Under the pieces are notes generated by a model. It did no database searches and was not told where the DNA came from. It saw only the letters and a list, made by a program, of their open reading frames with translations. The position numbers were made by a program, and so were the translations under genes. 40,535 bases of DNA from Polaromonas sp. UBA4122 (lineage in GTDB: Bacteria; Pseudomonadota; Gammaproteobacteria; Burkholderiales; Burkholderiaceae_C), in assembly GCA_002381615.1 (NCBI GenBank), contig DFWY01000001.1, forward strand, positions 24,310-64,844, in the 5' to 3' direction. The stretch's first letter is position 1. The number at the start of each line of letters is the position of its first letter. Below are positions 3,985 to 37,618 of the stretch, one piece after another.

Positions 3985-5631
3985 TTAGCGGCGCCGAAAA
4001 ACCAGCGCCAGCCCCGCCACGGCCAGGCCCAGCGCCCATAGCGGCCACAGCCCATAGCGCGACACCCACCAGGCGTAGGGCGTGATGCCGCTGCGGCCCT
4101 CTACCTCACCGACCAGCGCACCGCGCGTGTAGCGCGGCAAGGAGTGCGTCACCTGGCCGCGGTGGTCAATGATGACGGTGGCGCCTGTGTTGGTGGCGCG
4201 AATCATGGGTCGGTCAAATTCCAGCGCCCGCATGCGCGAGATCTGCAGATGCTGGTCAATCGCGATGGTGTTGCCAAACCAGGCAATGTTGCTGAGGTTG
4301 ACAAAGATCGTTGGCGCCAGCGCTGCATCCGTAAAGCGGGCACCCAGTTCTTCGCCAAACAGGTCTTCGTAGCAGATGTTGGGCGCCAGCCGCTGGCCCT
4401 TCCAGTCAAATGACGCTTGCCCCACCGCGCCGCGGTTGAAGTCTCCCAGCGGTATCTGCATCCGCTCGGTAAACCATCTGAAACCAGTCGGAATGAACTC
4501 GCCAAACGGCACCAGATGATTTTTGTCATAGCCGTAGGGTCTGGGCGGCTCAAGCAGGTTGGGCTCATTGGGTTTTAAACCGATCACCGAGTTGGTGTAA
4601 CCCGCCTGGAAACTGCCCAGCGGCAGGCCAATCAGTGCGGCCTGCTGCCCGGTGGCAAAGCGGGACTGCAGCGCCTGCCAGTAGTCCTTGGGCAATTGCT
4701 GCGGCAGCAGGGGAATGGCGGTTTCGGGCGCGACCACCAACTGGGTTTTAGCGTCACGCAGTTGTTCACCATACCAGCGCAGCGCCGTAGCCACACCCGT
4801 GCCACTCTGGAATTTTTCGTCTTGGGGAATGTTGCCTTGCAGCAGGGTGACCGACAGGGCCTCGGACGGTGCCGGAGTGTCTTCGATGTGAACGGTGTTC
4901 AGCACCGGCAGCCAGGCCACCGCCACACTCAACAGGACAAGGCTCAGCACCGTCAGCCAGCGCGTCCTGGGCGGTCGCAAGGACATGGCCAGCCAGGCGG
5001 CGACCAGCGCCGCCACAAAGCTCAGCCCATGCACGCCCACCCATGCCGCCAGCGGCCTGGCCCAGCCGTCCACATGGGCGTAGCCGCCCTCGCCCCAGGG
5101 AAAACCGGTGAACAGCTTGACCCGGGCCAGCTCGGCCAGCAGCCAGAGCGCCGCAAAAACAAGTACACGCGGCGCCCGCTGGACGGGGGCCAGCACCACA
5201 AACAGGCCACTTGCAGCGGCGTAGTACAGCGCCAGAAAGGCCGCGAGCAAGACGATGGCCAGTACCGTGAGCGGCGCGGCCAGGCCGCCGTAGACATGCA
5301 TGGAAATATACAGCCACCAGAAGGTGGCACACAGCATCGCCGTGGCAAACAGCCCACCCAGCCAGGCGGCGCGCTTCCAGGACCGACACCCGTCGAGTTG
5401 CGCGACCAGCAAAACCAGCGCCAGTACCTGCAACCACCACACAGGCTGACCCTGCACCATACCCAGCCCGGAACCAAAGGGAAAAGGCCATGCCATGCTG
5501 GCAGCATGGGCGCCACCAGCTATAAAAACAATAGCTATCTGAAGCAGCGAGAGGCGATTGCGCCGCGGGTGACCGGCACGCTCCAGCAAGGCCGGCAGGG
5601 TGAGCATCGAAGACACCATGCTGTGGATCAT
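3985..5631 (-). CDS. lnt: Apolipoprotein N-acyltransferase Lnt
   Basis: Inner-membrane enzyme that adds the third acyl chain to the N-terminal cysteine of lipoproteins. An N-terminal block of about six to seven membrane segments is followed by a carbon-nitrogen hydrolase domain. The Glu-Lys-Cys triad is visible as VVAPETAIPL (E303), YDKNHLVPFGEF (K370) and PNICYEDLFGEE (C420). I choose the ATG at 5631 because GAGGGGGAG precedes it at good spacing; the ATG at 5649 has no such site and would add six residues. It begins 24 bases after the corC stop, a conserved pairing. Residues 33-39 (AIVFIAG), in the first membrane segment, are encoded by a copy of the dispersed palindrome (5518-5536). Confidence 0.93.
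   Translation of the reverse strand: MIHSMVSSMLTLPALLERAGHPRRNRLSLLQIAIVFIAGGAHAASMAWPFPFGSGLGMVQGQPVWWLQVLALVLLVAQLDGCRSWKRAAWLGGLFATAMLCATFWWLYISMHVYGGLAAPLTVLAIVLLAAFLALYYAAASGLFVVLAPVQRAPRVLVFAALWLLAELARVKLFTGFPWGEGGYAHVDGWARPLAAWVGVHGLSFVAALVAAWLAMSLRPPRTRWLTVLSLVLLSVAVAWLPVLNTVHIEDTPAPSEALSVTLLQGNIPQDEKFQSGTGVATALRWYGEQLRDAKTQLVVAPETAIPLLPQQLPKDYWQALQSRFATGQQAALIGLPLGSFQAGYTNSVIGLKPNEPNLLEPPRPYGYDKNHLVPFGEFIPTGFRWFTERMQIPLGDFNRGAVGQASFDWKGQRLAPNICYEDLFGEELGARFTDAALAPTIFVNLSNIAWFGNTIAIDQHLQISRMRALEFDRPMIRATNTGATVIIDHRGQVTHSLPRYTRGALVGEVEGRSGITPYAWWVSRYGLWPLWALGLAVAGLALVFRRR
5518..5536. repeat. Dispersed palindrome, copy inside lnt
   Basis: Arms AGCTAT and ATAGCT flank the core AAAAACA. 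On the minus (coding) strand it reads AGCTATTGTTTTTATAGCT, matching the intergenic copies at 20934 and 33683, and it encodes part of the first Lnt membrane segment (Ala-Ile-Val-Phe-Ile-Ala). The preceding plus-strand bases (GCAGCATGGGCGCCACC) resemble the leader of the intergenic copies (GCATGCGCATAC). Confidence 0.6.
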
Positions 5632-5655
5632 CTGCTCCCCCTCTTTCATGACGGT

Positions 5656-6510
5656 TCAGTCGCTGGTCGCGACAGGCGAGACCTTGAACCAGCGCACGGC
5701 ACCGCCTTTGGTGTGCAGCACGGTGAACTGCAGGCCGGCCAGCGCGTAGTGTTCGCCGCGCTTGGGCACATGGCCCATCTCGTGGGCCACCAGGCCACCT
5801 ATGGTTTCAAAGTCGGTTTCGGGCAGCGTCACGGAAAACGCGCCGTTGACGCGCTCGATGGAGGTATCGCCGCTGACCCGGTAGGTGTGGTCGGTCAGGC
5901 CGAAGATGTCGCCTTCGTCCTCGGCGATGTCGAACTCGTCTTCAATTTCGCCGACGATCTGTTCGAGCACGTCTTCAATGGTCACGAGGCCCGCCACGCG
6001 GCCGAACTCGTCGATAACGATAGCCAGATGACTGTGGTTGTCGCGGAAGTCGCGCAGCAACTCATTGAGCCCCTTGCTTTCGGGCACAAACACAGCGGGA
6101 CGCAGCAGGGCCCTGATGTTGAGCTCGGGTGCGCGCTGCAGCTTGAGCAAATCCTTGGCCATCAGGATGCCCAGTATGTTTTCCTTTTTGCCTTCGTAAA
6201 CCGGGAAGCGCGAGTGGGCGGTGTCGATCACCAGATGCAGCAGCTCGTCAAACGGCGCATCGATGTTGATCTCATCCATGCGCGGGGCGGCCACCATCAC
6301 GTCACCGGCCGTCATGTCGGCCATGCGGATCACACCCTCGAGCATTTCGCGGCTCTGGGCGCCAATGACGTCGTTGTCCTGGGCGTCCACCAGGGTTTCA
6401 ATCAACTCGTCTTTGGAGTCGGGACCGGGGTGGAGCATTTCAGCGAGCTTTTGCAAAAAGCCGCGTTTGTCTTCTGCCTTGGAAGATCGACTGGGAGGAA
6501 CGTCGGACAC
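5656..6510 (-). CDS. corC: CorC/YbeX-family CBS-domain protein
   Basis: Cytoplasmic protein of the CorC (YbeX) family, linked to magnesium/cobalt efflux and, in E. coli, to ribosome and RNA metabolism; the exact role is unsettled. The 284-residue product has an acidic N-terminus, then two CBS motifs: DVMVAAPRMDEINIDAPFDE, and the second around PAVFVPESKGLNELL with FGRVAGLVTIEDVLEQIVGE. A C-terminal CorC_HlyC domain follows (IGGLVAHEMGHVPKRGE). No membrane DUF21 domain is present, so it is the short CorC type. The start is GTG at 6510 (MSDVPPSRSSKAEDK). It lies directly upstream of lnt, a common arrangement in proteobacteria. Confidence 0.92.
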   Translation of the reverse strand: MSDVPPSRSSKAEDKRGFLQKLAEMLHPGPDSKDELIETLVDAQDNDVIGAQSREMLEGVIRMADMTAGDVMVAAPRMDEINIDAPFDELLHLVIDTAHSRFPVYEGKKENILGILMAKDLLKLQRAPELNIRALLRPAVFVPESKGLNELLRDFRDNHSHLAIVIDEFGRVAGLVTIEDVLEQIVGEIEDEFDIAEDEGDIFGLTDHTYRVSGDTSIERVNGAFSVTLPETDFETIGGLVAHEMGHVPKRGEHYALAGLQFTVLHTKGGAVRWFKVSPVATSD

Positions 6511-6619
6511 GGGTGCGGTCGGTAGTGAGTAAGCCGACTAGGATAACGTAATTTCCCAGAACCCGGCCAACCGGGAGGCGACCCAAGCAATTTTCCGCCG
6601 GGCCGCCCCAAGCAAGTTC

Positions 6620-6669
6620 AGCCCCCTCGGGGGGCAGGGAGCACCACGCAGTGGGCGAACGTGGGGGCT
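6620..6669. repeat. GC-rich intergenic palindrome
   Basis: A perfect GCCCCC-TC-GGGGGC hairpin (6621-6635) is nested inside an outer inverted repeat, AGCCCCC at 6620-6626 and GGGGGCT at 6663-6669. The layout resembles short G/C-rich repeats that I recall as common between genes in Comamonadaceae. It lies between the GNAT gene and corC on the same strand, where it could act as a processing or termination hairpin. No T-run follows it. Confidence 0.6.
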
Positions 6670-6672
6670 ATG

Positions 6673-7389
6673 TTATTCGCGCACGCCATGGCGCGCTTTC
6701 TGCAGGGCGGTCAAAAAGTCCCAGAATTTCTTGGCCTGGACTTTGAGGCGGTAGTCGGTCTGGGCGAGCTGCTCTTCGACCATTTCGGTCATGCGCGAAT
6801 CCAGGTCTGCCGGTGGCAGCTTGAGGTAGGCCTCGCTCTCGGAGCCGTCGCGCTCAATCCTGGCACCGGCTTTGCGGGCAATCTTGAGCATGGCGGTGTT
6901 TTCGCTCAGCGCATGGATGAACATCATGTCGACGCCGTCGTTACGGGCATGCGTCACAGCGCGGTCATACAGGCGTGTGCCATAGCCCCGGCCGCGCGCT
7001 TTGGCCAGCACCGAGACGCCAAATTCGGCGCAGCTCTTGAGTTCAGGGTCGGTTGAAAACGCCAAGTGCGCCATCGCAATCAACTCAAGCTTGCGGTTGT
7101 AGATGCCGAAAATCTCGTCACGCTCAAAATTGAGCCCGTCCACATAACGGCGAATCTGCTCGTCGTTGGCCGCATAGCCAAAGCGCAGATAACGGTCATT
7201 CTCATCGAGCGCCAGCAGGTGCCTGGCGATGCGCTCGCCGTGCCTGGGGCCGATGGAGCGGATGGGCACCAAGACGGGTGTGACGTAAGGCATTGCGGGG
7301 CCGCGCTGCGCGTAGTCCTCCGTGGGCGCGCGAAGGAACTCCCTGCCCGCGTTGAAGGATGCTATTAATAGTGTGCCGGGTGTAACCAT
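6673..7389 (-). CDS. GNAT-family N-acetyltransferase
   Basis: A predicted acyltransferase of the GNAT superfamily using acetyl-CoA; the substrate cannot be told. The 238-residue product has the acetyl-CoA loop in ARGRGYGTRLYDRAVTHAR (motif A, R/Q-x-x-G-x-G/A), preceded by strands IFGIYNRKLELIAMAHLAF and AEFGVSVL and followed by FIHALSENTAMLKIARKAG. A charged helical tail ends in KARHGVRE. I use the ATG at 7389 (MVTPGTLLIASF), preceded by GGAG at short spacing; a GTG at 7425 would add 12 residues. The gene stands alone between Lrp and corC. Positions near 7370 carry a short CTATTAATAG palindrome. Confidence 0.85.
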   Translation of the reverse strand: MVTPGTLLIASFNAGREFLRAPTEDYAQRGPAMPYVTPVLVPIRSIGPRHGERIARHLLALDENDRYLRFGYAANDEQIRRYVDGLNFERDEIFGIYNRKLELIAMAHLAFSTDPELKSCAEFGVSVLAKARGRGYGTRLYDRAVTHARNDGVDMMFIHALSENTAMLKIARKAGARIERDGSESEAYLKLPPADLDSRMTEMVEEQLAQTDYRLKVQAKKFWDFLTALQKARHGVRE

Positions 7390-7604
7390 GACTCCAATAT
7401 AAGGGTTTTCACCTAGAATTCCCACCTGAACTTCTGGAAATGGCTTGAATAGAGAGGTTTGTCAAAAATTTAACAAAGTAGCCTGAAGCCCAATAAATAC
7501 GGGAATACCGCGCTCTTATTTAAAGAGCATATGGAATATTTTCAGGTAAATTGTTGCGGTGCAGCAACATCTGGGCGGGTCATTTTTAGCTGTTCACGAC
7601 TCAA

Positions 7605-7624
7605 GCAGCCCGAAACTGGGCTGC
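7605..7624 (-). terminator. Stem-loop downstream of the Lrp gene
   Basis: Perfect 7-bp arms GCAGCCC (7605-7611) and GGGCTGC (7618-7624) with a 6-base loop lie 13 bases after the stop of the Lrp-type gene. Only a weak T-run follows on the minus strand (TTGAG), so intrinsic termination is plausible but not certain. Confidence 0.5.
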
Positions 7625-7636
7625 ATGGGGAGTCAT

Positions 7637-8110
7637 TCACAGAGGCACCGCCGTCGTCGCCTTGACCCGATCCAGCACAAAACTGGTTTTGCAATCCTGC
7701 ACGCTCGGGTGCTTGAGCAGGGTGTCCATGATGAAGCGGCGGTAATGCGCCATGTCCTGCACCACCACCCGCAGCAGGTAGTCCATCTCGCCGGTTAAAG
7801 CCGCGCACTCAGCCACCTCAGGCCAAGTCTGCACACTGGCGCGAAACAAATCCATGGGGTTGCGTTTGTGACTTTCGGTGTTCTTTTCCAGCCGGACATT
7901 GATGTAGGCGGTGAGCCCCAGCCCGACCGCCTCTGGCTTGACCAGGGCGACATAACGGTCAATCACGCCGCTTTCCTCCAGCCTTTTCACGCGCCGCAGC
8001 ACCGCGCTGGGCGACAGACCGATCTGCTCGGCCAGTTGCTCGTAGGTGGAGCGGCCCTCAAGCTGCAGGCTGCGCAAAATCTGCCGGTCGAGCTTGTCAA
8101 GTGTTTCCAT
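7637..8110 (-). CDS. Lrp/AsnC-family transcriptional regulator
   Basis: A DNA-binding regulator, usually an octamer or dimer responding to an amino acid. The 157-residue product has the N-terminal helix-turn-helix (LDKLDRQILRSLQLEGRSTY, then LAEQIGLSPSAVLRRVKRLE) and a C-terminal RAM/AsnC effector domain (SVQTWPEVAECAALTGEMDY and YRRFIMDTLLKHPSVQDCKT). Length is typical. It is a single gene with 180 bases of non-coding sequence upstream, where autoregulation would be expected for this family. The target is not evident; no amino-acid gene is adjacent. Confidence 0.92.
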   Translation of the reverse strand: METLDKLDRQILRSLQLEGRSTYEQLAEQIGLSPSAVLRRVKRLEESGVIDRYVALVKPEAVGLGLTAYINVRLEKNTESHKRNPMDLFRASVQTWPEVAECAALTGEMDYLLRVVVQDMAHYRRFIMDTLLKHPSVQDCKTSFVLDRVKATTAVPL

Positions 8111-8292
8111 GGGCTCTATTTTGCAGGTCTATTGCGCCATCGGCAATTTCAACGCCCCAAGGCAGCACTAAATGGCCGTCACTCCCGCGGTGCAGGGCCA
8201 GTCTGAGCGCCCACCATGTGGCGACCATGCGCGCGGCGGGCCGGTAAACGCCACAGGAACGCCACCCACGCCTCCTGCCCCGCTTAATTCGC

Positions 8293-11200
8293 TTAGACCG
8301 CCCAATCGTGAAGCGCGCGGCAAGTCTGGTCGGTCAGCTCGGCAACCAGGGTCACCTGCGGCGCGGCATCCGCGGGCCACTGGCCTTGCAGGCAGGACTG
8401 CTCCAGGGTGAAGCAGGCGTCACTCAGCGCTTGCGCCCCGACGTTGGAGGCCGCGCCCTTGAGTGCATGCGCGGCGCGCGAGAGCGCTCCGCTGTCAAAA
8501 GTCGCCAGTGCAGCGCGGATGTCGTCCATGCGGTGGGGCGCATCGCTGGCAAACAGCGCAATCACCTCGCGCGTCATGCTGCGTTCGTCGTCGTCAAACT
8601 CCTTGAACTGCTCCAGGCGATTCCAGTCCATCAGCACCAGCGATGCTTCAGCGCTATTTTTCTTATTTCCCCCCGTTAGCACTGCGTAACCAGCTATTAC
8701 TTTGATAGCATTTTCACTGCCAGGCAGTCTGGCGTAGCGCGCCAGCGCAGCGCGGATATCGTCCATACGGTTGGGCGCATCACTGGCAAACAGCGTCTTC
8801 ACTTCGCGCGTCATGGCGCGTTCGTCGTCGTCAAATGCCTTGAACTGCTCCAGGCGACTCCTGTCCATTCGCGCCAGCGATGCTTCAGTGCCAATTTGCG
8901 GTTTCTCCCCCGTGGACACTCCGTTACCAGCTATTATTTTGATGGCGTTTTCACTGCCCGGTTTTCTGGCGTAGCGCGCCAGCGCCTCTGACAATTCATC
9001 AATATGCAGTGGCTTGGGTAAAAAGCCCACCATCCCGGCCTCCAGACAGCGCTGGCGGTCCTCTTCAAATACCGAGGCGGTCAGCGCGATGACAGGGGGC
9101 GCTGCGGTGCCATGGGTGCTGATGATCTGGCGCGAGGCGGCAAAGCCGTCCATCACCGGCATGTTGGCATCCATCAGCACGGCGGCATACTGGCGCGGTC
9201 CTTCGCGGGTAGTGGCGCCCGTGCCGCTGCGCAGCGATGCGGCCACCAGGTCCACCGCTTCGCGCCCGTTGATGCAGGTGGCGGCCTCGTAGCCCAGCTT
9301 GGTCAGCATGGCCAGCGCTACCTTCAGGTTGACCGCGTTGTCGTCGGCCACCAGAATGAATTGATTTTTAGCCTCCGGCCGCTCGACTTTCGCTACTGTT
9401 TTAATAGCCTGCTGCGCAGAGGTGACGCGCGCTATGGCCTCAAAAAGCTGTGACTGGCGATAGGGCTTGAGCAGACGCGCATCAAACACCCGGGCGGGCT
9501 CGCCGGTCGGCATGGTGCCCGATGTCAGCAGCACGATAGGCGTCTCCGGGCTGCGCTCGCGCAGCGTCTGCGCCAAGGTCTGGCCGTCCATCTCGGGCAT
9601 GTGCATGTCGGTCACGACCACATCCACAGGATGGCTTTGCAACCACGCCAGTGCCTCGGCGGCGCGCTCAAACAGGGTGGGGTGCATGCCCCAGCGCCTG
9701 AGCTGCTTGTCGAGAATGCTCAAATTGACGGGGGTGTCGTCCACCACCGCGACCTGCTTGCCGGACAAACTGACCAGGTATAAAGAAGCCAGCTGCGAGA
9801 CCTCTGGCGCATCCATATGGCCCAGCCGCGCGGTGAACCAGAACGTGGAGCCCTCGCCCGGGCCGGATTCCAGCCCCACACTGCCGCCCATCAGCGTGGC
9901 CAGACGCTTGCTGATGGCCAGGCCCAGCCCGGTGCCGCCGTATTTGCGGGTGGTGCCGGCGTCCACCTGGGTGAACGACTGGAACAGCGCGGCTTGCCGG
10001 TCTTGGGGTATGCCAATACCGGAGTCCTTGACGCGGAACTCAATCAGCGCCCCCTGCTGCGGCGTAAAGTCCTCCAGTACATGGGCCGACACAATGACGG
10101 TGCCTTGTTCAGTGAACTTGACGGCATTATTGACAAAATTGAGCAGCACCTGGCGCAGGCGCGTCACATCACCGCGCACCCAGATGGGCAGCTCGTCGCC
10201 CAAGTCCACCAGCAGCTCCAGGCCTTTCTCGCGCGCACGCGGTGCGCCAATATCGCAGGCCTCCTCAATTGTGGCCAGCAGGTTCAGCGGCTCGTCTTCG
10301 AGGGCGAGCTTGCCCGATTCGATCTTGGAAAAATCCAGGATGTCGTTGATCACACCCAGCAGCTGGTCGCTTGAGACGCGCATGGTGTGCACATAGTCGC
10401 GCTGCTCCGGGTCGAGCGGCGTGTCGGCCAGCAGTGTGGTCATGCCCACCACGCCGTTGAGCGGGGTGCGGATTTCGTGGCTCATGGTGGCCAGAAACGC
10501 TGCCTTGGCGCGCGCTGCCCCCAGCGCCTCTTCACGCGAAGCGGCCAGCTCGGCCGTGCGGCTGGCGACCCGCGCTTCCAGTGTTTCGTTGGCTTCACGC
10601 AGGGCAATGGTCTGCGCATCAATGGCCGCGCGGTTGCGCACAATTTCTTCAGCGCTGTCGTGCATGGCTTGCGAAAGCTGGCGAACTTCGGCAATACGGG
10701 CGTCTTGCTCCAGCGGCGGCACCTCGACGCGCGCCAGTTGCGCGGCGGCGGCGCTCAAGTGCTTGAAGCGACGGCTCAGCCGGTAGGCCAGCCAGGTAGC
10801 CAGCAGAGCTCCGAGCAGCAAGGCCAGGCCCATAGCGGCCCAGGTCTTTCGCAAGGCGGCTTGAGTGGTGGCCGTAAAGTCACTCTCCGGGGCGGCAACC
10901 ACAAGGCTCCAGCGCAAGCCCAGGTTTTCGCCGAAAGGCTGGAGCGCCACCACCAGCGTGTCGTCGCCCATGGCCACCCGGCGCAAAAAAGCCACCCGCT
11001 GCACGCTGGACTCCCGTGTTTTGCCGATGCTTGACGCGGCCTCGTTGTAGGCGCTGCGAATAATAGCGTTACGGCTTTGCAGGGGCCTGCGGCGCTCCAG
11101 CTTGCCGTCAATATCGGAAAAAAGTGGATCGCTGGTCGAGCTGGCCACCAACAACCCCTGCTCATCGACCAAAATGGCGGTGCCGTGTGCGCTGAGTATC

Positions 11201-11940
11201 ATGGTCTGCAACAACTCGCTCAGACGCTTCAGGTGCAAATCCACCGCGAACACGCCCAAAGCGCCGCCATCTGCGCCGTAAACGGGCTGCGCCAGCGTGA
11301 GCAGCAATTGGTTTTGTGCCGCTGACGGAACCACGGGCGTGAAGACACGCCCTTTGTGTTCCATGGCCGCCTGGTACCAGGGTCGGTTGCGGGGCTCATA
11401 ATTTTGCGCCTCGGTCGCCTCTATTTTGCTGCGGTCGCCCGGGTAGCCGGCTGAAAAATAACGCCGACCCGCGTCGCCTTGTTGGCGCAGTCCCACGCGC
11501 ATGAGGCTGTTGGCGTTTTCAGAGACGGTCTCCACCCCCAAATACTCGCCCCGATAGCTTGCCAGAACCATATGCGGCACGCTGGGCGTCATGCGTGTCA
11601 TGGCAAACGCGGTTTGCTCAAACAGCGCCGGCTCTTGCATGAGCTGGCGTGCCCGCGCCACGCCCGACTCAGTCGTTTGCTCCTCGGTCAGCCCGTTGAG
11701 CACGGTATGCGCCTGCGAGAGGTGCTCTTCCGTGCTGCTCTGCACGCGCTTGACCAGGTCGTCGACAATTTTGTCGGACAGTGTTTCCACGCTTTGCAGA
11801 TTGCTGCGGTACAAAAGCCAAGCCACCGTGGCGGCAGGAACAATGGAGAACAGCAGCAGACTGGTCACCAGCACAACGCGCAGCGACCATGCACGCCGGT
11901 GAAGTCGCCTTATCGCAGGCATTACCCAGCGCAGCATCAT
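8293..11940 (-). CDS. Hybrid sensor histidine kinase with two receivers and HPt
   Basis: A membrane hybrid kinase of 1215 residues. In order: membrane segment ~20-43; periplasmic dCache-like sensor ~45-355 ([28 protein letters not shown]); second membrane segment ~366-388; HAMP-like and coiled linker; HisKA with [10 protein letters not shown] (H488); HATPase with VKDSGIGIP and [11 protein letters not shown]; receiver 1 ([13 protein letters not shown]778); receiver 2 ([13 protein letters not shown]924); C-terminal HPt ([12 protein letters not shown]1158). All phosphorelay residues are present. Residues 986-1064 and 1065-1143 are an in-frame tandem duplication. Its ATG overlaps the cyclase stop (ATGA), so the two are translationally coupled. 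The ligand is unknown. Confidence 0.95.
8670..8710. repeat. Palindromic element with leader, kinase copy 1
   Basis: On the plus strand a CCCCCG leader, then GCACTGCGTAACC, then core AGCTATTACTTTGATAGC (8692-8709). It parallels the intergenic copy at 20902-20950 (CCCCCG, GCATGCGCATAC, AGCTATT). On the coding strand it is read as Ala-Ile-Lys-Val-Ile-Ala-Gly-Tyr-Ala. Confidence 0.65.
8907..8946. repeat. Palindromic element with leader, kinase copy 2
   Basis: Leader CCCCCG, then ACACTCCGTTACC, then core AGCTATTATTTTGATGGC (right arm one base decayed). It lies at the equivalent place in the other 79-residue unit, and is read as Ala-Ile-Lys-Ile-Ile-Ala-Gly-Asn. Confidence 0.6.
9392..9408. repeat. 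Palindrome core, kinase copy 3
   Basis: GCTACTGTTTTAATAGC sits in the linker between receivers 1 and 2. On the coding strand it is GCTATTAAAACAGTAGC, read as Ala-Ile-Lys-Thr-Val-Ala. This is the same frame as in the two other kinase copies and lnt. Confidence 0.5.
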
Positions 11941-20595: not shown

Positions 20596-20724
20596 TCAAA
20601 CTGTCCAGTCTTCGACCTGCAGGTCGCTTAACTGCGCAAATGCACGGTCGTTTGTCACCAGTACCGCGCCTATGCCGTGAGCGTGCGTAGCAATCAGCAG
20701 GTCAAGCGACCCGAGGCTATATCC
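20596..20724 (-). pseudogene. VapC-type PIN toxin, C-terminal remnant
   Basis: About 42 codons matching the end of VapC toxins: LGSLDLLIATHAHGIGAVLV, then TNDRAFAQL and LQVEDW. The N-terminal two thirds with the first catalytic aspartate are missing. The 5' boundary coincides with a palindromic element (20715-20762), which has replaced or interrupted the gene. No VapB-like antitoxin is next to it. Confidence 0.85.
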
Positions 20725-20762
20725 CCTGTGCAGTATGCGTAAGCAGCTATTAAAAATATAGC
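20715..20762. repeat. Palindromic element with leader, intergenic copy 1
   Basis: GGCTATATCCCC leader, CAGTATGCGTAAGC, then core AGCTATTAAAAATATAGC (20745-20762). It marks the break point of the vapC remnant on its left and of a PIN-gene tail on its right. Confidence 0.7.
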
Positions 20763-20765
20763 AAA

Positions 20766-20861: not shown

Positions 20862-20891
20862 AAATAAAGCGGCCTCCGAGCCGCTTTATTT
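20862..20891. terminator. Bidirectional terminator, copy A
   Basis: Perfect 12-bp arms AAATAAAGCGGC (20862-20873) and GCCGCTTTATTT (20880-20891) enclose a CTCCGA loop. A GC-rich stem base flanked by A/T runs gives an intrinsic terminator in both directions. The same 30 bases occur at 23264-23293. Confidence 0.85.
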
Positions 20892-20901
20892 ATAACAAAT
20901 C

Positions 20902-20950
20902 AGGCTATAGCCCCCGATCAGCATGCGCATACAGCTATTATTTTTATAGC
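20902..20950. repeat. Palindromic element with leader, intergenic copy 2
   Basis: GGCTATAGCCCCCG leader, CAGCATGCGCATAC, core AGCTATTATTTTTATAGC (20933-20950). This is the best-preserved copy in the window and serves as a reference for the others. Confidence 0.75.
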
Positions 20951-20983
20951 GTTCTTGCCATATGAGATGCCGTTAGCAACGGA

Positions 20984-23263: not shown

Positions 23264-23293
23264 AAATAAAGCGGCCTCCGAGCCGCTTTATTT
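23264..23293. terminator. Bidirectional terminator, copy B
   Basis: AAATAAAGCGGC (23264-23275), loop CTCCGA, GCCGCTTTATTT (23282-23293). It is placed to end the AbiE-type transcript from the left and any PIN-gene read-through from the right. Confidence 0.88.
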
Positions 23294-23304
23294 ATAACCA
23301 ATCA

Positions 23305-23352
23305 GGCTCTAGTCCCCGTTCAGAATGCGCAAGAAGCTATTATTTTAAGAGC
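23305..23352. repeat. Palindromic element with leader, intergenic copy 3
   Basis: GGCTCTAGTCCCCG leader, CAGAATGCGCAAG, core AGCTATTATTTTAAGAGC. The right arm has one mismatch. Confidence 0.65.
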
Positions 23353-23386
23353 ATCTTTAACACTGCACGTGCCGCTGATAAAACAA

Positions 23387-31881: not shown

Positions 31882-31898
31882 TCCCTGCGCCTCAGGCT

Positions 31899-31915
31899 GC
31901 TATTGAATAAATAGC
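31899..31915. repeat. Palindrome core, intergenic copy 4
   Basis: GCTATT-GAATA-AATAGC, perfect 6-bp arms, 17 bases after the aldo/keto reductase stop and between convergent genes. The AT-rich core and position would also suit a weak bidirectional terminator. Confidence 0.55.
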
Positions 31916-32063
31916 GCCTGGCGCACGTGGAATAATGGCTGCAGGCTTATTTTTCAAATATTCAGGCGCTTATCCCGGTTTTTGGAACAGCACCGGCTTC
32001 GACTCGGCCGTCTGGTCGGCCTTATGCTGAAACAGCCTTAGCGCTAAAGCCATCGGCATGGGC

Positions 32064-33446
32064 TTAATGTGGCGCCACCAGCGCCACAAAGCGCTGCAGG
32101 TACTCAGGCACCCGCATAAAGATGTAAAACGCCACCACTGCATTGGCCAGACCCACAAACAGAAAAATCTGCGGAATGCTGAACCCCGCCTTCAGCAGAG
32201 CACCCGCCAGAATCGCGCTGACGATCATGAACAGCGCATTGAGAATATTGTTGGCTGCGATGATGCGGGCACGGTGCGTGGGCTGGCTGCGCAACTGGAT
32301 CAGTGCGTACATCGGCACGCTGTACACCCCGGCAAACAGGCTGAGCAGCGCCAGGTCGATCATCACGCGCCAATGCGCGGGGTGAGACACGAAGCTGGCC
32401 ACGCCCATGATAGGCGCAAACGGCAAGCCGCGCGAGGCAAAGTAAAGGTCCACCGCAAACACGCTCATTCCCATCGCGCCGAATGGCACCAGACCGATCT
32501 CGACATGGCGGCGGCTCAGCACCTCGCACAGCAGCGAGCCGGTGCCAATGCCTAGCGAAAAAACCACCAGCAGCAAGGACGCCACCTGCTCATTGCCGTG
32601 CATCACCTCTTTGGCAAAACTCGGGAACTGGCTCAGGAACACTGCGCCAAAAAACCACATCCAGCTGATGCCCAGCAGGGAGCGGAAAACCACCGGGTTG
32701 TCGTTGGCCAGCTTGAGGTTGCGCCAGGTCTCGGTGAGCGGGTTCCAGTTGATTTTGAGGCCGGGATCGGTGGCCGGTGCCAGCGGAATGAATTGCGCCA
32801 CAGCCCGGCCCGCGAGCGCCAGCAGCACGCAGGAAATCGCCACATAGAGCGGGCCCACGCCGGGCACCGCCACCATGAGACCGCCCACCATGTTGCCGAG
32901 CAGAATGGCCACAAAAGTACCCATCTCGACCATGCCGTTGCCGCCAGTCAGCTCACGCTCGTTCAGCGCCTGCGGCAGGTAGGCAAACTTGACCGGACCA
33001 AACAGCGTGGAGTGAAGCCCCATCAAAAAGGTACAGCCCAGCAGCACCGGCACCCGGACACTGACATCGCTGCCGAGAAAACCCACGGCGGCCAACAGCA
33101 TGATCGCCACTTCGAGGTTTTTGACGAAGCGGATCACGCGGGTTTTTTCAAACTTGTCGGTGAGTTGCCCGCTGGTCGCCGAGAACAGCAGAAAGGGCAG
33201 GATGAACAAGGCCCCAATCACCAGCCCCGCCAGAGCAGGCGGGAGCCAGCTCACGCTGAGCTGGTAAGTCACCATCACGGTAAAGGCAAACTTGAAAAGA
33301 TTGTCATTGGCCGCGCCCGAAAACTGGGTCCAGAAATATGGCGCAAAGCGACGCTGCATCAGGAGCGCGAATTGATTCGGGTGCTCGTGGGCTGGCGCCG
33401 GATACACCGGTGCGGCTGTGTCCGGTGTGGCTGTATCAACACGCAT
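32064..33446 (-). CDS. MFS transporter, LplT-like
   Basis: 460 residues, major facilitator fold with about 12 membrane helices. It resembles lysophospholipid transporters (LplT and the transporter half of fused Aas-type proteins): RRFAPYFWTQFSGAANDNLF, GLHSTLFGPVKFAYLPQAL and GGNGMVEMGTFVAILLGNMV are typical of that group. Here no acyltransferase domain is fused. The ATG at 33446 (MRVDTATPDTAAP) is chosen; a TTG 36 bases upstream is in frame. Likely role: moving lysophospholipids across the inner membrane for re-acylation. It converges with the aldo/keto reductase and is divergent from dadA. Confidence 0.85.
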   Translation of the reverse strand: MRVDTATPDTAAPVYPAPAHEHPNQFALLMQRRFAPYFWTQFSGAANDNLFKFAFTVMVTYQLSVSWLPPALAGLVIGALFILPFLLFSATSGQLTDKFEKTRVIRFVKNLEVAIMLLAAVGFLGSDVSVRVPVLLGCTFLMGLHSTLFGPVKFAYLPQALNERELTGGNGMVEMGTFVAILLGNMVGGLMVAVPGVGPLYVAISCVLLALAGRAVAQFIPLAPATDPGLKINWNPLTETWRNLKLANDNPVVFRSLLGISWMWFFGAVFLSQFPSFAKEVMHGNEQVASLLLVVFSLGIGTGSLLCEVLSRRHVEIGLVPFGAMGMSVFAVDLYFASRGLPFAPIMGVASFVSHPAHWRVMIDLALLSLFAGVYSVPMYALIQLRSQPTHRARIIAANNILNALFMIVSAILAGALLKAGFSIPQIFLFVGLANAVVAFYIFMRVPEYLQRFVALVAPH

Positions 33447-33682
33447 GCCTGACGCCTTTTTTTTCAAGTTGTTGCGCAGCAAGCTCTTGCGGCGGCTTGG
33501 GCTGCTCTGTTTTTGAAGCCTGTACTGAATTCTGCCCTGATTTTCCAGATGCCCAAGGCAGCACCACGAAAGCCATCAACGGTTTGATAGACTGGAGAGC
33601 GAATGGCCTAGCCGTCCCACCACAGCGGCAAGCAGCGGAACGCAGTTTCGGTTATTTTTTTAGCCGCATCAAGCCCCAGTTT

Positions 33683-33699
33683 GCTATATTTATAATAGC
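33683..33699. repeat. Palindrome core, intergenic copy 5
   Basis: GCTATATTTATAATAGC in the 300-base divergent region between the LplT-like gene and dadA, 48 bases before the dadA ATG. On the minus strand it continues as AGCTATTATAAATATAGCAA, close to the copy at 20745. Confidence 0.6.
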
Positions 33700-33746
33700 T
33701 ACTTGTGCCCGTCCCGCATGGTCTATCTATCGAAAAGGTTACACAA

Positions 33747-37262: not shown

Positions 37263-37618
37263 GAAAGTCTCCTGGCGGGTTGTGCCCGATGGCATCGGAA
37301 CGGATGGTCTGCTTCACCATGTTGGCATGGGACATTGGAGCTCCCAGCACGCGCCTTCATTGTGCAACGCCATGGCGGCACGTCAACCGGTTTTTATCCA
37401 GTTCCGTCCAGACTGGGTCGAGCTCCTGGTAAAGATGATTTTTGCCTCTTTTATTAATAAAATATATACATAGCCCTTATACAGCGGTCACTGTATGCTA
37501 TTAATGTAATAGCAACTCAAAGGCCACCGGGTGCTTTGGGCTGTGCGGGTGTGTGAGCGCAGGGGTTCGCGCAGACCGGCACCCTCTCAAGGCCGGGCGG
37601 TACTGCTAAGCTTGCGCG
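37263..37618. other. Divergent intergenic region, phaM / VOC gene
   Basis: About 356 bases without a gene. An AT-rich patch holds the perfect 14-bp palindrome TTTTATTAATAAAA (37449-37462), which may be part of the promoters, followed by a palindromic element. The remainder is GC-rich and shows nothing I can name. Confidence 0.55.
37469..37513. repeat. Palindromic element with leader, intergenic copy 6
   Basis: CATAGCCCTTATACAGCG leader, then core GCTATTA-ATG-TAATAGC (37497-37513) with perfect 7-bp arms. The TAGCCC...CAGC leader has the same architecture as the copies at 20902 and 23305. Confidence 0.6.

Follow-up and report, generated by a model that had tools for sequence, protein, structure and literature searches.

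Rickettsia palindromic elements (RPEs) are palindromic sequences that lie inside many genes in a fixed open frame. Repetitive extragenic palindromic sequences (REPs) inside genes of other bacteria are described in excerpts of PMC3733652, and repeats inside genes as such are not new. The DNA uptake sequences (DUS) of Neisseriaceae include dyad-symmetric pairs in Simonsiella and Kingella and carry a stop codon in one DUS frame, according to excerpts of PMC3630211, and uptake sequences in general show a frame bias, according to excerpts of PMC2346458. Here, we describe a palindrome-headed motif of about 65 bp in a stretch of 40,535 nucleotides from Polaromonas sp. UBA4122 (contig DFWY01000001.1, positions 24,310 to 64,844; hereafter the window), where it lies between genes and inside lnt and a hybrid sensor kinase gene. 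We read it, with a probability of roughly 0.4, as a double-stranded DNA motif that is kept in place on the chromosome, most likely via uptake-biased transformation. The maintenance in situ is well supported, whereas the uptake part is a commitment that we make and not a result.

The pattern GCTAT-N4..12-ATAGC was found at 7 sites in the window against 0.04 expected, and the spacing was 7 at all seven. The whole source genome (4.17 Mb in 172 contigs) contains 247 exact copies of GCTAT-N7-ATAGC, compared with a single copy of the control, the same pattern backwards. This palindrome is the head of an asymmetric, roughly 65-bp motif with a long tail on one side. Its layout is GCTATTAAWTTAATAGC-TGCTTGCGCCCGT-N6-TGGGCTAGAGGC, then a T-tract, then an A-tract, with the consensus TTGCTATtaaaTTaATAGCTGcTTGCGCCCGTcctgaaTGGGCTAgAGgCctaTTT...AAAA; the parts are thus the dyad head, a GC-rich middle, and the two tracts about 10 bp apart. 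The 'CCCCCG...TGCG leader' named in a sequence-only reading of the window is the tail of this longer motif on the other strand. A profile search of 426,222 bp (the window plus 20 further stretches of the source genome) resulted in 72 separate copies with E up to 0.1, and the reversed sequence gave no match to the same profile at E up to 1. The density in the sampled stretches, about 167-170 copies per Mb or one per 6 kb, may be high because the 20 stretches were mostly from contigs listed with palindromes. By our own gene calls, made with a purpose-made codon-usage caller, 40 copies are intergenic, 10 lie at gene edges and 22 lie inside genes. About 60 in-gene copies would be expected at 84% coding, so the motif is depleted in genes yet common there.

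The sequence-only reading had proposed that the palindrome enters proteins as a Rickettsia-type insertion, and lnt and the kinase do not bear this out. In lnt (3985-5649, minus strand; the name comes from that reading, without a family-library scan), the motif copy occupies 5479-5538 on the minus strand and scores 25.6 bits with the first profile and E 2e-5 with the second. Its palindrome at 5519-5535 is an exact GCTATN7ATAGC and encodes AIVFIAG. The residues belong to the first transmembrane segment of Lnt, where no gap falls within the motif residues in 30 proteins of the genus, nor in 81 proteins of a wider set. Of these 81, 17 keep the palindrome intact and 6 differ from it at one position; the others have the same or similar residues from GC-rich codons, for example GCCATCGTCCTGGTGGCC. 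Relatives thus share the residues without a gap, which is the outcome that the insertion claim had named as its own refutation. The six motif codons of lnt include ATA (5% of Ile codons) and form the 6th rarest of 549 windows in the gene; this rarity is only moderately unusual in one genome, because 616 of 99,929 windows in sampled genes are equally rare. Across 27 genomes of the genus, arm mismatches at the Lnt site fall as palindromes per Mb rise (Spearman -0.47, P 0.014, uncorrected for kinship), although there are exceptions in both directions. Among named relatives, the nearest to the Lnt of the window are from Polaromonas. A second, antisense motif-like site (13-17 bits) lies in the lnt of Acidovorax soli, Rhodoferax ferrireducens OTU1, Polaromonas sp. 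C04 and a Comamonadaceae metagenome-assembled genome, at about 1766-1831 on the minus strand of each stretch, away from the main Polaromonas site.

The hybrid sensor kinase gene (8293-11940, minus strand, again named by the sequence-only reading) holds three copies and has a duplicated linker segment. Copy 1 (8655-8711, minus strand; tail towards 8655 placed by eye) has an exact palindrome at 8693-8709, encodes AIKVIAG and scores 20.3 bits over 8684-8711. Copy 2 (8922-8946, minus strand; palindrome 8930-8946, GCCATCAAAATAATAGC on the minus strand) encodes AIKIIAG and is, as had been noticed, a tandem duplicate of copy 1. Copy 3, weak or degenerate, lies in the other linker (9390-9417, plus strand; palindrome 9392-9408, GCTACTGTTTTAATAGC) and encodes AIKTVA. 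The last two copies are present as reported, with one arm mismatch each, and taken singly they score weakly with the family profile (7.0 and 8.1 bits; E of about 2 and 1, respectively). Relatives have homologous sequence in both linkers, some with one-mismatch palindromes there, and the sole clean gap corresponds to the source genome's own tandem duplication, which was found in none of the 17 relatives with residues at that place (one ortholog, L063, is without residues at the linkers). The duplication spans about 8496-8970 on the minus strand with a 79-residue period and covers a linker segment on the HPt side.

We compared the protein length at further sites between the source genome and five zero-copy genera, or up to four, counting net differences by eye. 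The gene symbols (ThiL, PgeF, KdtA, YgfZ-like and so on) and the MTase-like and UvrD-like labels are our presumed identities. Pfam checks on ten of the proteins gave AIRS domains (ThiL), Cu-oxidase_4 (PgeF), DUF748 twice, kdotransferase (KdtA), heptosyltransferase, an AMP-binding ligase, acyl-CoA dehydrogenase, MutS and GCV_T (YgfZ-like). MutS has no extra residues relative to the motif-free genera, YgfZ-like has at most +4 in the source genome and roughly 0-1 in most relatives, and acyl-CoA dehydrogenase has 0-5. Longer differences were found in acyl-CoA ligase (+4 to +6 at the first site, +12 at the second, against three outgroups), heptosyltransferase (about +7), ThiL (+8) and the MTase-like gene (+18, one outgroup). 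PgeF has +4 in the source genome, up to +17 elsewhere and also +4 in the motif-poor genome G013. The stretches in KdtA, DUF748 and UvrD-like (X79) are too variable for a length call. Extra residues are thus present at ThiL, the ligase and the MTase-like gene, but a clean full-length insert of about 22 residues was found at none of the 14 sites compared. In a 10-genome comparison, orthologs were missing for Lnt (3), the acyl-CoA ligase sites (5 and 5), the DUF748 sites (1 and 5), acyl-CoA dehydrogenase (4) and the MTase-like gene (8); in a 20-genome comparison, they were missing for PgeF (1) and heptosyltransferase (4).

The extra ThiL residues are common to all 16 species of motif-bearing genera, including JS666 and G013, both nearly motif-free; they number +5 in G013 and up to +17 elsewhere. 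The ThiL palindrome is intact in 8 of these 16 species, among them G097, G139 and G186, which represent three other genera with proteins 66-73% identical. Since the lengths are mixed from site to site, some sites gained residues long ago and others did not. Copies of the motif recur at orthologous sites across species, and in several genes they stand on native residues.

The length differences are an argument for regarding the copies as remnants of a mobile palindrome of the RPE, REP or MITE kind, which would have inserted into genes and spacers before several genera diverged and whose copies have since decayed or survive as part of proteins. The +8 in ThiL, +12 in acyl-CoA ligase and +18 in the MTase-like gene would suit such an origin, as would the sporadic copy numbers across genomes and a fixed in-gene frame of the RPE kind. 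The absence of extra residues at Lnt and MutS, and nearly so at YgfZ in most relatives, argues against it, as does the way in which copies vary. The best pair identity is 82% among 56 copies of the source genome and 84% among 15 copies of G014, and no pair above 84% was found in the four genomes compared. In 114 near-full copies (21 of the 135 aligned copies were left out as too short), no column pair rose above 10 shuffles; the largest pairing excess was 0.11 against 0.143 in the shuffles, and the largest mutual information was 0.23 against 0.249. This absence of covariation speaks against both clear subfamilies and selection for a hairpin. The top pair is within the shuffled limit in P. naphthalenivorans CJ2 and in G033, and identity variance above the shuffled null in three of the four genomes is a point for relics of mobility; we put this raised variance down to copies of unequal quality, and some copies may share ancestry.

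Conservation along the motif is non-uniform and position-specific. The first profile was trained on exact palindromes, and for this reason a tail-only profile that had not seen the palindrome was used. In its 51 untrained matches (26 training copies left out), 7 of the 10 upstream arm positions were conserved at 84-100% and 3 at 63-80%, compared with 45-75% in the loop; the register was free to shift by one base for the best match, a freedom that benefits the arms. Neutrally decaying copies related as a star would not show this arm conservation. Copies are thus constrained position by position without detectable coupling. Taken together with the near-absence from CJ2 plasmids and the transposase contexts given below, these results make descent from a mobile element unlikely.

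The same variation bears on a hairpin acting in transcripts, as a terminator, stabiliser or small RNA target. The palindromic head and the T-tract do resemble a terminator, and the 23 copies in tandem gaps of the source genome run 16 against and 7 along the gene direction. However, the arms are without compensatory changes: the arm pair 7-15 is CA in 27 copies and TG in 14, against CG in 3. Inside genes, the main-frame copies are equally sense and antisense (23 and 23, pooled). Of the intergenic copies of the source genome, 39 have called genes on both sides; their counts in tandem, divergent and convergent gaps (23, 9 and 7) follow the base pairs of these gaps (35.9, 15.3 and 7.6 kb), so there is no context bias and no clear convergent excess (7 of 39 copies against 13% of base pairs). 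The motif also had no Rfam match in 96 kb, where only sucA and Bcj11 were matched. An RNA role is strongly disfavoured.

All four copies in lnt and the kinase read A-I-x-x-(I/V)-A on the minus strand, as the sequence-only reading had observed, and its proposal of a fixed frame extends to many genes. Eighteen of the 22 in-gene copies of the source genome read A-I-x-x-I-A in this main frame, 4 use the frame where TAG arises from an intact right arm, and none uses the third (P = 5e-6 for zero in the third frame; P = 0.011 for the main-frame excess). When the stretches of 15 genomes are pooled, GCT-ATN...ATA-GCN is the reading of 46 of the 51 in-gene copies, while 5 use the TAG frame and none the third. 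The 51 include orthologous sites, 6 of 149 matches spanning fewer than 39 motif positions were left out of the frame count, and the pooled in-gene share is inflated because the sampling of relatives centred on in-gene sites that were already known. When the 71 intergenic copies were read on both strands (n=142), the main frame was open 58 times, the third 44 times and the TAG frame once. A stop-codon filter therefore removes the TAG frame and not the third, and the frame preference exceeds what the filter explains. We read the fixed frame as a reflection of protein tolerance. Peptides of the form Ala-Ile/Val/Leu-x-x-Ile/Leu-Ala are common and may turn into GCTAT...ATAGC by few changes, often at third bases, while the third frame would demand Tyr and Ser codons; this short route is our proposed explanation of the observed frame.

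Counts of exact palindromes run from 0 to 484 in 37 genomes of the genus, and 150 genomes of the family have either 0-7 or 12-317. JS666 has 19 palindromes in total and lacks any motif copy in 120 kb. Its proteins match those of the source genome in length at Lnt, ThiL and the second ligase site, where similar residues are written in different codons, and are shorter at PgeF, the first ligase site, acyl-CoA dehydrogenase and heptosyltransferase. The copies have thus been eroded in place in some lineages. GC pressure alone is not the cause, because G029, at 57.8% GC, has only 3 copies in 120 kb.

In P. naphthalenivorans CJ2, 248 of the 249 palindromes are on the 4.41-Mb chromosome and 1 is on the eight plasmids (956 kb; P 3e-20), inside a dehydrogenase gene. 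This split assumes that the palindrome listing follows contig order, and separate searches of the four large plasmid records give the same picture (0, 0, 0, 1; the plasmid records include pPNAP01-04). The motif is nearly absent from CJ2 plasmids. Searches of phage and plasmid records, weak for a diverged 65-mer, gave no consensus match in 50,697 phage records and 2 partial matches in 72,556 plasmid records; ten stretches of viral contigs carry an 18-base piece of the motif.

A chromosomal bias would also be expected if the motif were bound by a protein that organises the chromosome or regulates genes, with hundreds of sites kept by selection for function and not by uptake. The sequence evidence given above fits sites of a chromosome-binding protein as well: conservation is position-specific and free of pairing, and a 17-bp dyad whose spacing is always 7 would suit a dimer. 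A density of about 170 per Mb, as in the sampled stretches, and an extent of 65 bp are, however, unusual for one binding protein. The lack of context bias in intergenic space, the range from 0 to 484 exact heads among 37 genomes of one genus and the failure to find a candidate protein also count against it. We regard a binding-site function as rather unlikely, although less so than relics of a mobile element.

A trans-acting recogniser of the motif presumably exists. No factor whose presence tracks the motif was found among the Y1 transposase, ComEC and GspH, all of which are near-universal. A transposase-linked REP was rejected, as a Y1_Tnp match occurs in 40 of 41 genomes of the genus at any copy number, and neither competence marker, ComEC nor GspH, separates motif-rich from motif-poor genomes. 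Sixteen stretches carry a longer (~240-aa) Y1-transposase gene, similar to REP-associated tyrosine transposases (RAYTs). A motif copy lies within 1 kb in 1 of them, only at 2-3 kb in 3, and nowhere in 12, several of which come from motif-poor genomes; that 15 of the 16 genes lack a copy within 1 kb counts against mobile relics. Short IS200-like Y1 transposase copies were seen near motif copies at L246 (G000:C87), L247 (G000:C151) and L248 (G000:C68): one is 157 bp from the motif, in another two copies are about 1 kb away, and the third is flanked on both sides, which could be target preference or chance. In three genomes (G014:C12:394405-395484, G211:C28 and G015:C108), the match to the ComEC competence domain is split in two by additional sequence, all within one open frame.

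Compared with the DUS and USS of Neisseriaceae and Pasteurellaceae, the motif is alike in its dispersed copies held in place, in its in-gene frame bias, in its location in core DNA and in its dyad-symmetric arrangement, which excerpts of PMC3630211 report for Simonsiella and Kingella. It is over-represented (247 against 1) and kept in situ, as judged by Lnt, tail-only conservation and lack of coupling, and it is biased to the chromosome in CJ2 (248 against 1), a bias not seen in the motif-poor JS666. It differs in its length (~65 bp against ~10 bp), in having fewer copies, in its family and in that no receptor was found, and it is known here from sequence alone. With RPEs, it shares a palindromic sequence in many genes and one preferred open frame (46 of 51 pooled, 18 of 22 in the source genome). 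Unlike RPEs, it is no insertion at Lnt and MutS, recent copies were not seen, and conservation is non-uniform without a pairing constraint; dispersal by copying was not apparent, with no near-identical copies or column coupling, although the top pair exceeded its null in two of the four genomes and the variance in three. Bacterial interspersed mosaic elements and REPs with RAYTs (GTAG- and CGTC-tagged REPs) are also high-copy, palindrome-containing repeats, some in genes, as excerpts of PMC3733652 describe. The present motif lacks their stem kept by base pairing, a Y1-transposase gene flanked by the repeat is mostly absent (a copy within 1 kb in 1 of 16 stretches), and 22 of 72 copies are in genes. 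Miniature inverted-repeat transposable elements (MITEs) coding for segments of proteins, such as enterobacterial RU and those of Coxiella, are likewise small repeats in genes (excerpts of PMC2759123 and PMC5896051), whereas no motif pair exceeds 84% identity, with terminal inverted repeats sought at the head only.

Under uptake-biased transformation, the chromosome would gain and keep the motif copy by copy, through point changes and small indels. DNA with better motifs would be taken up and recombined more often, and motifs would then accumulate wherever a protein tolerates them. In-place evolution where residues are tolerant, irrespective of orientation, across hundreds of chromosomal sites and with erosion in some lineages would make the motif work like an uptake sequence under molecular drive. 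More tentatively still, Comamonadaceae may carry a previously undescribed, long, dyad-headed signal for DNA uptake (or chromosome identity) that is spread by molecular drive and rewrites proteins in place across several genera. No description of the motif was found in excerpts of the open-licence PubMed Central literature, including PMC12306157, and motif strings in paper texts gave only an unrelated match.

Several points weigh against uptake-biased maintenance. Known uptake sequences are denser and shorter than this motif, with its one copy per ~6 kb and ~65 bp. The 8-18 extra residues at some sites are more easily explained by insertion; in two of the four genomes the top pair lies above the 95% limit of the shuffles (82% against 80%; 84% against 80%), and in three of the four the identity variance lies above its null. 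The two JS666 plasmids (698 kb) are not depleted, with 2 of 19 sites if both are in the assembly. The motif-rich genomes G017, G019, G006, G021 and G008 are without the Lnt site, and two motif-poorer species, G029 and G001, retain it. ComEC is found in 36 of 41 genomes of the genus whether or not the motif is present (the 5 without it are <90% complete), and GspH in 146 of 150 genomes, motif or not. Finally, none of the papers that a search of the open-licence PubMed Central literature turned up deals with competence in Polaromonas, as judged by titles and the starts of abstracts.

If the motif is an uptake-type signal, it would be unusually long and would belong to a lineage other than the familiar ones. 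The range from 0 to 484 exact heads in one genus would then offer a natural erosion series for mapping the loss of the driving factor. To our knowledge, uptake-type signals are familiar from two lineages only. Even without uptake, a constraint at the DNA level shapes the amino acids of conserved enzymes, and a 'repeat inside a gene' need not mean insertion.

Six further copies in the window are intergenic. Palindrome and profile agree at 20714-20763 (minus strand), 20886-20951 (minus, full length), 31898-31960 (plus, full length), 33682-33726 (plus) and 37471-37514 (minus), and the profile alone identifies 23289-23353 (minus), whose left arm is changed. The window also contains an Rfam match to the Burkholderia RNA Bcj11 (73.8 bits) at 32601-32722 on the minus strand.

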